Part shown: in pieces, positions 25,029-59,000 of the stretch
Position numbering within the stretch: the stretch's first letter is position 1
Layout: each line of letters begins with the position of its first letter
Origin: Solidesulfovibrio fructosivorans JJ]
GTDB lineage: Bacteria > Desulfobacterota > Desulfovibrionia > Desulfovibrionales > Desulfovibrionaceae
Length of the DNA stretch: 64,000 nt
Direction: 5' to 3'
Assembly (NCBI RefSeq): GCF_000179555.1
Contig: NZ_AECZ01000012.1
Coordinates: forward strand, 1-64,000
Notes under the pieces: generated by a model
What the model saw: the letters and a program-made list of their open reading frames with translations, nothing else
Database searches by the model: none
What the model was told of the DNA's origin: nothing
Translations under genes and position numbers: made by a program

Positions 25029-25062
25029 TTTACAAACGGGCTGGAAGTTTTATTTCTAGAAT
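25029..25062 (+). promoter_or_regulatory. Possible promoter of the 25.1-kb structured array
   Basis: AT-rich stretch with TTTACA (25029) and TAGAAT (25057). The spacing between these (22 bp) is too long for one standard sigma70 promoter, so the assignment is weak. Confidence 0.25.
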
Positions 25063-25095
25063 CAACGGCAACCTCATATGAGGTGGAACCCGAGC

Positions 25096-26159
25096 AGGAG
25101 GCAACGCCGTCACGAATCCCGTCTCCCATACCCGGCGAAACGAGTCGCCCACCCCCAAGGCCAAACCGGCTTATGCCGGAACCTTGAAGGCGAAAGGACT
25201 TGCCCGATCGCCACGCAAAAGCGCCAGCGGTACGGCCGACAGGCCGAGAAAGACCGCCGCAGATGTTGGGAGTCAGAGGACCTGGAAGCGGGAAACTTTC
25301 AAGACGGAACATTGGAGGGCACTGCCGATGGGCTTACGCGACCCATACACGGCGAAGCGAGTCGCCCCGAAGTGACGGCCGTAAGCAGGCCGGAGTGGTG
25401 GCTGAACTTATCCGGTCACCGGGGAGGAGCCAGACGGCCAGAGACGGCCGGGGCCTCTCCGAAGGAACAAGGATCCGGAACCAGGCAACAGCCGAACGCA
25501 AGATAAACTGGAGGGCAATGCCGACGGGCCTTAAAAACCCATATTCGGCGAAGCGAGTCGCCCCGAAGTGACGGCCGTAAAGGCCGGAAGGGCGGTCGGA
25601 CTTATCCGGTCGCCGGGAGGAGCCAGAGGCCACGCGGGCCGGCCCCTCTCCACGGAAACAAAGGATCCGGTATCAGGTAATCTCGGAGCGTAAGACAAGC
25701 CGGAGGGCAATGCCGATGGGCTGATACGCCCCATAATCGGCGAAGCGAGTCGCCCGGAATAGATGGCCAGGTAACGGCCATCCCGGCAAAAGGACATCCC
25801 GGAAGGCGTGGTGCGGAAATTGACCGGAAAACATTGGAAAAGGTCAGGCACACGCGAGTAGGGATCGGCTCCCGGTAATGACGAGAAGCCAATGCGCGCC
25901 CGGCGCGCGGAAACGATAAGACGCGATGTTCCCTACCCGGCGAGAAGACTCGCCGCGCGCATGCGGAACCGGAGGTTCTCTCCGGAACCCGCCCGGTGCA
26001 GGAACCGCCCTGCCGCCGGCGCACGGGAAGCGGCCCGGCCGCAACAGCCGGATGATGCCGCGACCCGCCACGAAAGGGTAACGGAAACAGGTTACGTCGG
26101 AACGAAACAGTATCGAACCGACCCCGCCCGGCCCGGCTGCGGACCGGACGGGGTCTTTT
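25096..26159 (+). ncRNA. Array of five ~200-nt structured repeat units upstream of htpX
   Basis: No convincing coding potential. Five units share the core CCCATA-N2-CGGCGA-N6-TCGCC; its hairpin GGCGA/TCGCC begins at 25134, 25351, 25547, 25739 and 25939 (spacing 217, 196, 192, 200). Unit 5 has GGCGAG/CTCGCC, a compensated extension. Three central units add GGAGGGCAATGCCGA before the core and a GGCC/GGCC hairpin after it, enlarged to GATGGCC/GGCCATC in unit 4. Units 2 and 3 also share ACTTATCCGGTC and AAGGATCCGG. It ends in an intrinsic terminator 30 bp before htpX. Plus-strand transcription is inferred from that terminator. I do not recognise it as a known RNA class. Confidence 0.6.
26120..26159 (+). 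terminator. Intrinsic terminator between the array and htpX
   Basis: Arms GACCCCGCCCGG and CCGGACGGGGTC (one C-A mismatch) followed by TTTT, 30 bp before the htpX ATG. It could end the array transcript or act as an attenuator of htpX. Confidence 0.8.
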
Positions 26160-26189
26160 CCTATAGACGTCATGGAGGTTTTCCCCATC

Positions 26190-27044
26190 ATGAGCAGCCA
26201 GATAAAGACCGCCCTGCTCCTCGGACTTCTTACCGCGCTCATCCTCGTCGTGGGCCAGGCCATGGGCGGCCGGCAGGGCCTTGTCATCGCCTTTTTTTTC
26301 GCCGTGATCATGAACCTCGGCAGCTACTGGTTCTCGGACAAGATCGTGCTGTCCATGTACGGCGCGCGCGAACTGTCCCCGTCCGACGCCCCGGGCGTTC
26401 ACGCCATGGTCGAGGAGCTGGCCCGAAACGCCGGCATCCCCAAGCCCCGCCTCATGATCGTGGCCCAGGAATCCCCCAACGCCTTCGCCACGGGCCGCAA
26501 CCCGGAGCATGGCGTGGTCTGCGTGACGGCGGGCATCCTGCGGCTGCTTTCCCCGGAAGAGCTGCGCGGCGTGCTGTCCCATGAGCTGTCCCACATCAAG
26601 AACCGCGACATCCTCGTCCAGTCCATCGCCGCGGTCCTGGGCGGCGCGGTGATGATGATGGCCAACATGCTCCAGTGGGGAGCGATTTTTGGCATGGGCC
26701 GCAGCAGCGACGACGAAGGCGGTGGTGGCGGCGTCCTCGGCGCGCTGGCCATGGCCCTGCTCGCGCCCCTCGCGGCCACGCTCATCCAGATGGCCATTTC
26801 CCGGTCCCGGGAATACCTGGCCGACGCCACCGGGGCGAAGATTTCCGGCACGCCGCTGGCCTTGGCCGGAGCCCTGGGCAAGCTCGAGAACTACTCCCGG
26901 CAAATCCCCATGCAGGCGAACCCGGCCACGGAAAACATGTTCATCGTCAATCCGTTCGCCGGCGTCTCCATGGCCTCGCTTTTCTCCACCCACCCGCCCA
27001 CCGAGGAACGCATCCGCCGCCTGCGCGACATGGCCGGACGTTAA
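26190..27044 (+). CDS. htpX: Membrane zinc metalloprotease HtpX
   Basis: 284 residues. Membrane endopeptidase that cuts misfolded inner-membrane proteins. Seen: two N-terminal helices (~8-45), zinc motif [12 protein letters not shown] (HExxH, ~128-139), two further helices with a Gly/Asp-rich loop, third ligand region [15 protein letters not shown], and [19 protein letters not shown] 11 bases before ATG 26190 favours this start over ATG 26172. Downstream of the tandem RNA-like array and its terminator. Confidence 0.93.
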
Positions 27045-27068
27045 GAGAAGAGAAGGATAGAAGACAGT

Positions 27069-27110
27069 GCGAGAGGGGAAACCCTTTTGCAAAGGGTTCT
27101 CCCCTCTCGC
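27069..27110 (+). repeat. Type A intergenic hairpin, copy 3
   Basis: GCGAGAGGGG ... CCCCTCTCGC with the CTCTCCCCTTCCTAAA flank, 24 bp after the htpX stop between convergent genes. Confidence 0.75.
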
Positions 27111-27198
27111 GCTCTCCCCTTCCTAAACTCTTTAGCGGTTACGGCTGCCGTACGGGTTAACAGTCCCGTCCCTTTGGAAGTCTTTGGAAAGGGGGTTT

Positions 27199-27231
27199 GG
27201 GGGGAAACTTTTCTACAGAAAAGTTCCCCCC
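27199..27231 (-). repeat. Type B intergenic hairpin, copy 2
   Basis: GGGGGGAAACTTTTC / GAAAAGTTCCCCCC around a TACA loop, immediately after the stop of the NYN gene. Minus-strand flank CCCCCTTTCCAAAGACTT matches the other B copies although the stem bases differ. Confidence 0.75.
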
Positions 27232-27237
27232 AACTTC

Positions 27238-27819
27238 TTACCGCGCGACTTCGCTCGCGAAATCGTCGATCCAGTAGATGCGGTCGGCCCGGCACTGCAG
27301 GTCGGTGGAAACGCCGTTCTTGAAGACGAGCAGCTCGAAGCGCTTGTTTTTTTCCGTGATGTACTCGATGGCGTCCAGCAGGTCGCTGTCGCCCGAGGAC
27401 AGGATCAGGGTGTCGTAGTTGTCGACGTGGGTCAGGGCCAGGGTGGCCAGGCCCACATCCACTCCTTTTTGCTGCTCGCGGCTCAGGCGATGCTTGGGGT
27501 CGTTGGGGCAGGCCACGGGCACTTTGCGGCGACAGTGTTCGCAGTAGAGATCCGTGATTTCGCTCGAGCGCAGTTCGTAGAGCTTGGTGATGATTTTCGG
27601 CCCGATGGGCGGGGCGCTGCGCATCCAGTTATAGAAGGAAACCTGGGCGTCGGGCGTGGGATTGGGAACGGAATTGAGATAATAGGCTCTCCAAAGCGGT
27701 TCTTCAATCTCAAGCTTGTTTCTCAATTTGACATAGTCGATACTATAATCACGATTGTAAATGGATTGTCCGCGATACATGTATCCGGCGTCGATCAGCC
27801 AGAGCTTGCGATTGATCAT
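27238..27819 (-). CDS. NYN/LabA-like PIN-fold protein with Cys cluster
   Basis: 193 residues. LWLIDAGYMYRG near the N terminus and LILSSGDSDLLDAIEYI in the second half are the acidic motifs of NYN (PIN-like) nucleases; VDVGLATLALTHVDNYD precedes the latter. An insert with YCEHCRRKVPVACPND offers three Cys (CxxC plus one) for a metal. Role unknown, RNA processing likely for the fold. AAGGAG seven bases before ATG 27819 favours this start over 27825. Confidence 0.8.
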   Translation of the reverse strand: MINRKLWLIDAGYMYRGQSIYNRDYSIDYVKLRNKLEIEEPLWRAYYLNSVPNPTPDAQVSFYNWMRSAPPIGPKIITKLYELRSSEITDLYCEHCRRKVPVACPNDPKHRLSREQQKGVDVGLATLALTHVDNYDTLILSSGDSDLLDAIEYITEKNKRFELLVFKNGVSTDLQCRADRIYWIDDFASEVAR

Positions 27820-56007: not shown

Positions 56008-59000
56008 ATGAGCCAGGATTTCATGGATCCGGAATTGTTTGCCGACTTCATCGTGGAAGCGCGGGAGCATCTCGAAACCATCGAGCCCAATCTTCTCGAA
56101 TTGGAGCGCAACCCCGGAAACCTAAGCCTCCTCAACGACATTTTTCGCCCCATGCATTCCCTCAAGGGGGCCTCCGGCTTTCTTGGCCTCAATGCGATCA
56201 ACGGGCTGGCCCACAAGGCCGAAAACATCCTCGACGAGCTGCGCAAGGGCAACATTCCCGTCACGCCCGAGATCATGGACGTGATCCTGGCCGCCACGGA
56301 CCTGCTGCGCACCATGATCGAGAATCTGGAGCAGACCGGGGTCGAGGGCGACGTGGACACCGCGCCGGTCATCGCCCGCATCGCGGCCCAGCTCGAGGGC
56401 GGGCCGCCGGCCGCGCCCGAGGTGCCGGCCGCGCCCACCGATTTCCCGGCCGAGGATGTCGCCCCGCCCGCCGCCGAACCGACTCCCGAACCCGAACCGG
56501 AACCCGGGGCCGCCCCGGCCGTCGAGTCCGCACCCGCCGCCGGCAACGGCGCGGCCGCCGCGGCCGCCGAGAAGATCGCCAGGATCACCGAGGAGCTGCC
56601 GCCCTTCGTTCCCGACACCTACCAGCTCACCTCCATCGGCGAGGGCCATATGGCCGATTTCCTGGAAGAGGCCCGGGAAATCATCGAGCGCTTAAACGCC
56701 GCCCTGCTCGAACTCGAATCCGCCGGCGAGGGCCGCTCGGAAAGCATCAACGACATTTTCCGTTATTTCCACAACCTCAAGGGCAACAGCGGCATTATCG
56801 GCCACAAGGATTTAAACGCCCTGACCCATGAGGCCGAAACGCTGCTCAACCGCGTGCGCAAGGGCGAGATCGCCACCAGCCCGCTGATGGTGGATCTGCT
56901 TTTGGCCGTGGTCGATCAGGTCGAGGCCCTTGTCAGCGACATCGAGCCCGCCACGAGCATGGCCACGCCGCTCGACATCCGGCCGCTGGTGGCCCGTCTC
57001 AAGCAGGCCACCGAGGACGGCGAGGTGTTCGAGTCGCCGAGCGCCGGGACGGCGGCCGACCAGCCGGAAGAGGAAGGCGAGGCCGCGTCCGAGGCGGAAG
57101 GCGAACCGGAACCCGCGCCGCAGGAAGCCGGCCCCGCCGCCAAGGAATCCGCCAAGCCCGCCGCCACGGGCTACGACCCCGAGGACGTGGCCGTCTTCGA
57201 GTCCACCATCGACCAGCAGATCGTATATATGGGCCAGGCCCTGGCCGGGCTGGCCGAGGATCCCGAATCCAAGGAGATGGAGGACGGCCTTTACCGCGCC
57301 CTGGTCACCATCCAGAATTCCTCGGGCTACATGGGGCTTTCCGACCTCAAGGTCCAGGCCGAGCGCACGGCCGGCCTCGTGGACCAGGCCCGCAAATCCG
57401 GTCTTTCCTTCGACATCCTGCTCGACATGCTGCGCCAGGAGTGCTCGATCCTGGGCGACATGCTCACCGCCGCCCTGGCCACGCTTCGCGGCGGCAAGGC
57501 CCCGGCCGCGCCCAAGGCGGCCCCGCTGCCGGCCAGCGAACCGGCTCCCGCGCCCAAGGCCGAGCCCAAGGCCGCGCCCAAGGCCGAGCCCAAGGCCGCG
57601 CCCAAGGCGGCTCCCGCGCCGGAATCCGAACCGGCCCCCGCTCCCAAGGCAAAACCCAAGGCCGAACCCCAGCCGGAAGCCAAGCCCACGCCGCCTCCCG
57701 CCGCCAAACCCGCGCCCGAGGCGAAACCGGCGGCCAAGTCCGCGCCGGCCCCCGCGTCAAAGCCGGCGGCCAAGCCCGCCAAGCCTGCCGCCCAGGCCGC
57801 GCCCGCCGCCCAGGCGGGCGAAGCCGGCGGCAAGCCCAAGGTGTCGGCCACCATCCGCGTGGACCACGAAAAGCTCGACCATCTGATGAACCTTATCGGC
57901 GAGCTCATCATCAACCGCAACCGCTTCGCCATGCTCGCCCGCTCCCTGGAAGAGGGCAAAAACGACGTGGCCCACATCGGCCAGCAGCTGACCGAAACCA
58001 CCTATTCCATGGCGCGTATCTCCGACGATCTGCAAGACACGATCATGAAGGTGCGCATGGTGCCGGTCTCCACGGTCTTTTCCCGCTTTCCGCGCCTGGT
58101 GCGCGACCTGTCGCGCAAATCCGGCAAGGAAGTGAACCTCATCACCGAAGGCGAGGAAACCGAACTCGACAAGTCCGTGGTCGAAGTCATCGGCGACCCG
58201 CTGGTGCACCTCATCCGAAATTCCGTGGACCACGGCATCGAGACCGAGGCCGAGCGCGTGGCCACCGGCAAGCCGCCGGTGGGCCGGGTGTGGCTTCGCG
58301 CCTACCACCGGGGCAATTCCGTGGCCATCGAGATCGAGGACGACGGCAAGGGCATCGACCCGGCCAAGATGCGCGAAGTGGCGGTCAAAAAAAATCTCAT
58401 GTCGCCCGAGGAGGCCAAGGCCCTCGACGACCGCGACGCCATCGACATCATCTTCATGCCCGGCTTCTCCTCGGCCGAGAAGATCACCGACATCTCCGGC
58501 CGCGGCGTGGGCATGGACGTGGTGCGCACCAACATCAAGAACCTCAAGGGCACGGTCAACGTCACGAGCGAAGTGGGCAAGGGCACCAAGTTCACCCTGT
58601 CCCTGCCGCTGACCCTGGCCATCATCGACGCGCTGATGGTGGTGGTCGCCGGCCAGATTTACGCCATCCCGCTCGATTCCGTCTCCGAGACGACCAAGAT
58701 CGAACTCAAGCGCATGACCGAGGTCAACAAGCGCAAGTGCGTGACGCTTCGCGGCGAGGTGCTCGGCATCGTGGAACTGGCCGAAATCCTCGAGCTGCCG
58801 CCTGAAGAGAGGGAACGGGAAATCGTCCCCATCGTCATCCTCCAGGACAACGAGCGCCGCCTCGGACTTATCGTCGACCGGCTGCTCGAGCGCCAGGAAA
58901 TCGTCATCAAGCCGCTCGGGGCCTATCTCTCGGAATTCGATATGCGCGGCATCTCCGGCGCGACCATCATGGGCGACGGCTCGGTCGTGCTCATCCTCGA

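Follow-up and report, generated by a model that had tools for sequence, protein, structure and literature searches.

A structured RNA family of Desulfovibrionaceae, apparently new, with a tandem form upstream of htpX in Solidesulfovibrio

Introduction

The RNAs CsrB, RsmY and RsmZ carry repeated elements within each molecule and are encoded by more than one gene per genome. Other large bacterial RNAs, such as OLE, GOLLD and ROOL, are long and structured, with functions described as poorly known in the available part of the source (PMC12286853). Among sulfate reducers, a survey of Oleidesulfovibrio alaskensis placed ncRNAs in 18 Rfam families, as given in the available part of the text (PMC11124144), and a paper on 104 motifs does not name Desulfovibrio in the part available (PMC2864571). 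The RNA considered here was not found described in the literature searched, which did not include a 2017 set of 224 candidate RNAs.

The locus under study lies in a 64,000-nucleotide stretch of the genome of Solidesulfovibrio fructosivorans, referred to below as the window. It appears to represent a new family of Desulfovibrionaceae RNAs, with no catalogued match at Rfam gathering score. With Rfam 15, the only matches at this score were five tRNAs in the window and two tRNAs in 20 relative loci, while two single-unit RNAs gave no match at E<=5. An earlier sequence-only reading of the window had found no resemblance to known tandem riboswitches. The six hits of the array at E<=10 are all below gathering score.

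The array of S. fructosivorans

Inspection of the sequence places five tandem units of about 200 nt, as the sequence-only reading had proposed, at window positions 25063-26159, adjoining htpX. Their cores begin at 25125, 25342, 25538, 25730 and 25930, with spacings of 217, 196, 192 and 200 nt that match the range of 192-217 given before. The pattern CCCATA-N2-CGGCGA-N6-TCGCC had been ascribed to all five cores. It holds for units 1-4 and fails for unit 5, whose core deviates (TCCCTA; 77% identity to unit 1) and which corresponds to a distinct terminal class in relatives. The middle part of the array was also detected independently by TRF (25314-25759, period 192, score 551). The features, with unit boundaries within the array set by the authors' choice, are as follows:

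25029-25056, plus strand: promoter-like sequence TTTACA-N16-TATTTC
25063-25307, plus strand: unit 1, first type, with a 5' hairpin, the GCAGGAGG leader and the core hairpin at 25125-25150
25308-25503, plus strand: unit 2, middle type, with the core at 25342-25367, followed by helices P4 and P5
25504-25695, plus strand: unit 3, middle type, with the core at 25538-25563
25696-25895, plus strand: unit 4, middle type, with the core at 25730-25755
25896-26119, plus strand: unit 5, terminal type, with the core at 25930-25955 and the CGGAGGTTCTCTCCG hairpin
26120-26159, plus strand: intrinsic terminator that ends the array, formed by a G+C-rich hairpin and the run TTTT (26156-26159)
26190-27044, plus strand: htpX, preceded by GGAGG at 26174-26178, with a tblastn orthologue 3' of congener arrays

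Judged from the promoter-like site, transcription of the array probably begins near 25063, some 30 nt before position 25096, where the sequence-only reading had begun the element. The gene name htpX comes from that same reading, which assigned it without a family search. A broad-family model described below, R3, matches unit 1 over 25081-25179, with E 6e-5 in the genome search, and unit 3 over 25494-25588 (E 0.002). The CGGAGGTTCTCTCCG hairpin of unit 5 has the same letters in 15 of 15 array loci, and a related version of the array terminator is likewise present in all 15. A terminator scan calls positions 26141-26156, in a setting where shuffled sequences also give 2.3 such sites on average. 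The intrinsic terminator predicted before the htpX ATG is thus present, with 34 nt between T-run and ATG where 30 bp had been stated.

Two other repeats occur in the window. Directly 3' of htpX, positions 27055-27240 hold a dispersed element of about 180 bp with many inverted repeats. A search of the window genome gave 93 matches to it at E<=0.001, including 40 long ones, with the window copy counted (382 first-look candidates, 40 scored). By eye, letters resembling this element come after the single-unit RNA at two other loci (L187 and L227). Positions 57504-57692 hold imperfect tandem repeats of 90 bp and 12-24 bp.

Conservation across Solidesulfovibrio

A BLASTN comparison with 59 relatives gave strong matches in all of the 13 congeners, and elsewhere nothing rose above noise. 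The array lies upstream of htpX in all 14 Solidesulfovibrio genomes searched, window genome counted, and comprises three units in eight of them, four in three and five in three. The units fall into a first, a middle and a terminal class. In one congener (G010) the third unit looks by eye like a chimera, its 5' half close to unit 4 and its 3' half to unit 2, which suggests unequal recombination.

Upstream of the array, TTTACA with a spacer of 15-16 nt is kept in 14 of 14 htpX-linked arrays, 102-105 nt ahead of the first core; a strict consensus promoter scan found no promoter. Downstream, tblastn places an htpX orthologue directly 3' of the array in all 13 htpX-linked loci of congeners. The gene upstream of the array in the window recurs in 5 of 13 other array regions, and htpX is the constant neighbour. 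Its ATG lies 29-41 nt past the terminator T-run in all 14 arrays. Since so short a gap could hardly hold a separate htpX promoter, coupling by read-through is likely, and transcription of htpX probably passes through the terminator or starts inside the array.

The constant htpX and its close spacing to the terminator also favour another explanation, in which the array is a cis-acting leader: its tandem domains would respond to a signal and govern the terminator that immediately precedes htpX. However, the same genus contains family members away from this gene. Covariance models of terminal units (R1) and of middle units (R2) revealed further three-unit loci, two in G006 and one in G008, and single-unit loci in G004, G011 and G013, with promoter-like and terminator sequences similar to those of the arrays. 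With R2 the single-unit copies reach 57-73 bits, even though they were absent from its building set. The window genome itself has a second family member, a single unit on another contig (C31, L187:4013-4210), which sits between a CBS/PAS hybrid kinase gene and a convergent EAL/GGDEF gene. Seven weak covariance-model hits (L098, L100-L103, L105, L106) were taken as chance by eye, and weak R2 hits (E 0.02) occur also in two other families of the order.

RNA structure and coding capacity

In 24 middle units, the core hairpin together with helices P4 and P5 is paired in 95.8% of cells, and seven pairs change on both sides; slid controls are paired in 26-47%, with 0-2 such pairs. This bears out the paired variation of hairpin bases noticed in the sequence-only reading. 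Because the core hairpin is invariant in middle units, structural support there comes from P4 and P5. Further pair types are at shuffle level (118 of 500 shuffles as high). Double changes affect 10 of 36 pairs in the terminal-unit alignment and just 2 of 18 in that of first units.

The single-unit form has a 5' hairpin, followed by the leader and the core hairpin, and two further hairpins enclosed within a terminator stem. Of 13 Solidesulfovibrio single-unit loci fetched, 11 were aligned and two (L226, L230) were left out as not fitting the search expression. The six-helix structure of these orthologues is paired in 98.4% of cells, with six pairs changed on both sides, against 39-47% in slid controls; here too, further pair types do not exceed shuffles (420 of 500 as high).

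The lack of protein conservation in the frames between hairpins, claimed in the same reading, agrees with the coding tests. In five close array pairs the mismatches have no clear codon phase, and of 19 indels, 17 have lengths not divisible by three. Only 2 of 90 frames in arrays lack stop codons, and these two lie on the minus strand. Across genera the distance from leader to core varies between 29 and 38 nt with no kept frame. A protein-coding repeat was therefore rejected, given the lack of a conserved frame in arrays and the frame-breaking distances between leader and core. The array reads as a structured non-coding RNA.

The variation of unit number between species could also reflect a decaying or selfish DNA repeat with no RNA function. 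Against such a repeat stand the compensatory changes, the conserved promoter-like and terminator sequences, the retention in 14 of 14 genomes, and the finding that the array is the one strong BLASTN match to itself within the window genome. This explanation is considered very improbable.

A wider family in Desulfovibrionaceae

Relatives in other genera were found with a pattern derived from the core, followed by choice by eye. From the matches listed in 82 genomes, 20 further regions were fetched and 17 kept as seeds, while three (L147, L148, L155) were dropped because they have no leader. These three also break the only core pair that the pattern does not constrain, so that their omission favours the pair statistic. 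One of them, L148, lies directly before an HU-like gene. Model R3 was built from 22 single-unit RNAs, namely the 17 seeds and L099, L104 and L095-L097. In these 22, the pair 69:76, the only core pair not fixed by the search pattern, is formed throughout (A-U 11, G-C 6, C-G 3, U-A 2). Neither further pair types (172 of 500 shuffles as high) nor double-change pairs (163 of 500) of this alignment rise above shuffles, and its leader helix is only 70.5% paired.

A covariance-model search for homologues had been set as a check on the sequence-only reading. At E<=0.01, R3 matches 110 of 287 Desulfovibrionaceae genomes, in 20 of 44 genera, where about three genomes are expected by chance and E-values are rough. 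At E<=1e-5 there are 14 genera, 11 of which had given seeds and three of which (g10, g21, g44) had given none. Wider searches matched 87 of 247 genomes of the order and 86 of 218 of the class, and the hits listed all belong to Desulfovibrionaceae; the two samples overlap, and the share of other families in them is not stated.

Since the seeds were chosen through the core pattern of the array, circularity was checked with an HMM built from the 19 seeds outside Solidesulfovibrio. Its best scores are 14-23 bits on each of 15 arrays, against 6.2 for the best of 1500 shuffled arrays. Many of these hits cover the core only, and 14 of 15 arrays have at least one hit that extends into the leader (model position <=17); the terminal unit is scarcely matched. 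The leader GGAGG and the 3' domain lie outside the seed pattern.

A set of 52 single-unit RNAs was chosen by the authors from 78 matches, leaving out array units, duplicates, many close relatives in g5, and L205. The leader contains GGAGG in 51 of them. Folding energy, computed for 18 of the 52, has a mean z-score of -2.5 relative to shuffles. Loose promoter matches lie upstream of 46 and, by eye, cluster in position; as 49% of shuffled upstreams also pass, this scoring is weak. Terminator-like T-runs follow 49 of the 52, a raw count with no shuffled baseline. In six genera (g5, g14, g21, g37, g46, g47), two single-unit genes lie adjacent, about 260-400 nt apart.

Two alternative explanations centre on the conserved leader. 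It has been considered that GGAGGGU and AAUA mimic a ribosome-binding site or pair with CCUCC-containing RNA, and both elements are indeed abundant in the 52 RNAs (GGAGGG 51 versus 6 expected, AATA 67 versus 40). Nevertheless, GGAGG is predicted to be mostly paired (mean unpaired probability 0.25), and divergent three-unit copies carry GGAGT or GGATGG instead, which makes a base-pairing or ribosome-directed RNA of this type rather unlikely.

The second candidate is the protein CsrA, which would be sequestered through an NGGA loop of the leader, multiplied in the array according to the logic of CsrB and RsmZ. Of 40 genomes, 37 encode CsrA, that of the window among them. CsrA also occurs in genomes in which the search for the RNA found nothing, which speaks against this role. 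All 52 single-unit RNAs have GGA in the leader, often as AACGGA, and plain GGA is somewhat more frequent than in shuffles (323 versus 289, z 2.8). The window array shows the same excess (43 versus 34, p 0.02), as does one other array, though not most. The more specific A.GGA, however, stays at shuffle level in the arrays and in the single-unit RNAs (87 versus 78.5, z 1.2). Moreover, what is conserved is GGAGGG, predicted to be mostly paired, with a single conserved site per domain. On these counts the family does not show the many GGA in hairpin loops that mark CsrB-type RNAs; loop placement was assessed for the window array, by unpaired probability. A CsrA sponge is therefore not supported and is held to be doubtful.

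Genomic context of the other loci

Outside the htpX-linked arrays, tblastn found htpX and the two neighbour genes of the window at 0 of 47 loci (2.5-8.5 kb each), and thus the riboswitch reading is not supported in general. No neighbour gene common to several genera was seen. Pfam searches on 10 neighbour proteins identified EAL/GGDEF and CBS/PAS histidine kinase genes in Solidesulfovibrio, a calcineurin-like phosphoesterase in g3, and MerR and Hpt genes in g8. At seven loci (L094, L095, L104, L153, L187, L203, L204) ORF calls place a convergent gene 3' of the RNA, confirmed by Pfam for L187 only. The gene faced by L104 is one that we take to resemble dnaE, and two tRNA genes lie about 1 kb from the single-unit locus L095. 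In g46 (L142-L144, L156, L202), the gene downstream of the single-unit RNA is presumably uppP.

Some observations by eye concern individual genera. A short GTG/ATG frame can be traced across the core at some of the g46 loci, while g5 has a frame that runs from near the GGAGG. In g37 (L099, L189), two adjacent single-unit RNAs precede a gene resembling those for RRM-type RNA-binding proteins.

For the cis-acting leader, these loci weigh against the fixed spacing to htpX: a terminator of its own, with no htpX nearby, belongs to the paralogues as well as to the single-unit relatives, ORF calls put a convergent gene opposite several of them, and no Rfam aptamer reaches gathering score, or E<=5 in the two single-unit RNAs searched at that level. 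Control of htpX as the main role of the array is accordingly judged improbable. The sequence-only reading had offered both a riboswitch-like regulator and a stand-alone repetitive ncRNA. The latter gains support from the paralogues away from htpX and the single-unit relatives in many genera. The former does not stand as a general function, and its one remaining cis element is the spacing to htpX.

Proposed mechanism and meaning

The reading favoured here, with a probability of roughly 55%, is that of a trans-acting RNA with multiplied domains, combined with read-through into htpX. That a new structured RNA family exists is held to be far more certain. Sequence comparison establishes the homology, covariation, non-coding nature, loci away from htpX and conserved promoter-like and terminator sequences.

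In the favoured reading, the array would be a gene, transcribed into a structured ncRNA of about 1.1 kb in which a first-type unit is followed by one to three middle units and then by a terminal unit. The basic form would be one domain of about 200 nt that combines a 5' hairpin and the AACGGAGGG leader with the motifs AAUA and CAUA, the hairpin GGCGN-ANNGAG-N'CGCC, and two hairpins enclosed in a terminator stem. The RNA may act in trans and independently of Hfq, through repeated contacts with one partner, for which a protein, the ribosome or another RNA are candidates. More genes and more domains would then provide higher dosage or valency, and the htpX of Solidesulfovibrio would be expressed by read-through of the array terminator.

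Growth of the family by gene pairs as well as by fused domains suggests that domain number matters, as it would in a sponge or scaffold. A bolder and more tentative version of the favoured reading sees a new RNA class, in which a covarying domain of about 200 nt stands alone as a small RNA across much of the family and was fused by unequal recombination into three to five units in Solidesulfovibrio. In bacteria that lack Hfq, it would bind a global partner as a multivalent scaffold or sponge, and a membrane-stress protease gene would tap its read-through. Hfq (PF17209) was found in 0 of 40 Desulfovibrionaceae genomes from 31 genera, in a search with a control match in 5 of 14 known genomes. 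The occurrence of CsrA and Hfq does not separate genera with the RNA from those without.

The family is relevant to environmentally important sulfate reducers, having strong matches in 14 of their genera. The failure to find Hfq in any of the 40 genomes bears on how small RNAs work in these bacteria. The natural series of one, two adjacent, three, four and five domains allows a direct test of what domain number does, with the fixed position of htpX as a possible read-out.

Comparison with known systems

Like OLE, GOLLD and ROOL in the available part of their description (PMC12286853), the array is long (about 0.7-1.1 kb), structured and of poorly known function. Unlike them, it is built of three to five copies of one domain of about 200 nt that also stands alone, and its Rfam hits include none of these families, even below threshold.

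With the tandem riboswitches, such as those for glycine and c-di-GMP, the array shares structured tandem domains followed by a terminator and a gene. The family differs from them in having no fixed downstream gene and no aptamer match at gathering score.

CsrB, RsmY and RsmZ resemble the family in their repeated elements and in the several genes per genome, in bacteria where CsrA is encoded. In contrast to these RNAs, the family shows no enrichment of A.GGA and one conserved GGA per domain of about 200 nt.

Sibling or tandem sRNA genes, for example those of Neisseria as covered in the available part of the sources, are comparable to the pairs of adjacent single-unit copies in six genera. The family differs from these siblings, as far as those sources describe them, in that a search of 40 genomes found no Hfq and in that the domains of Solidesulfovibrio are fused in one array.
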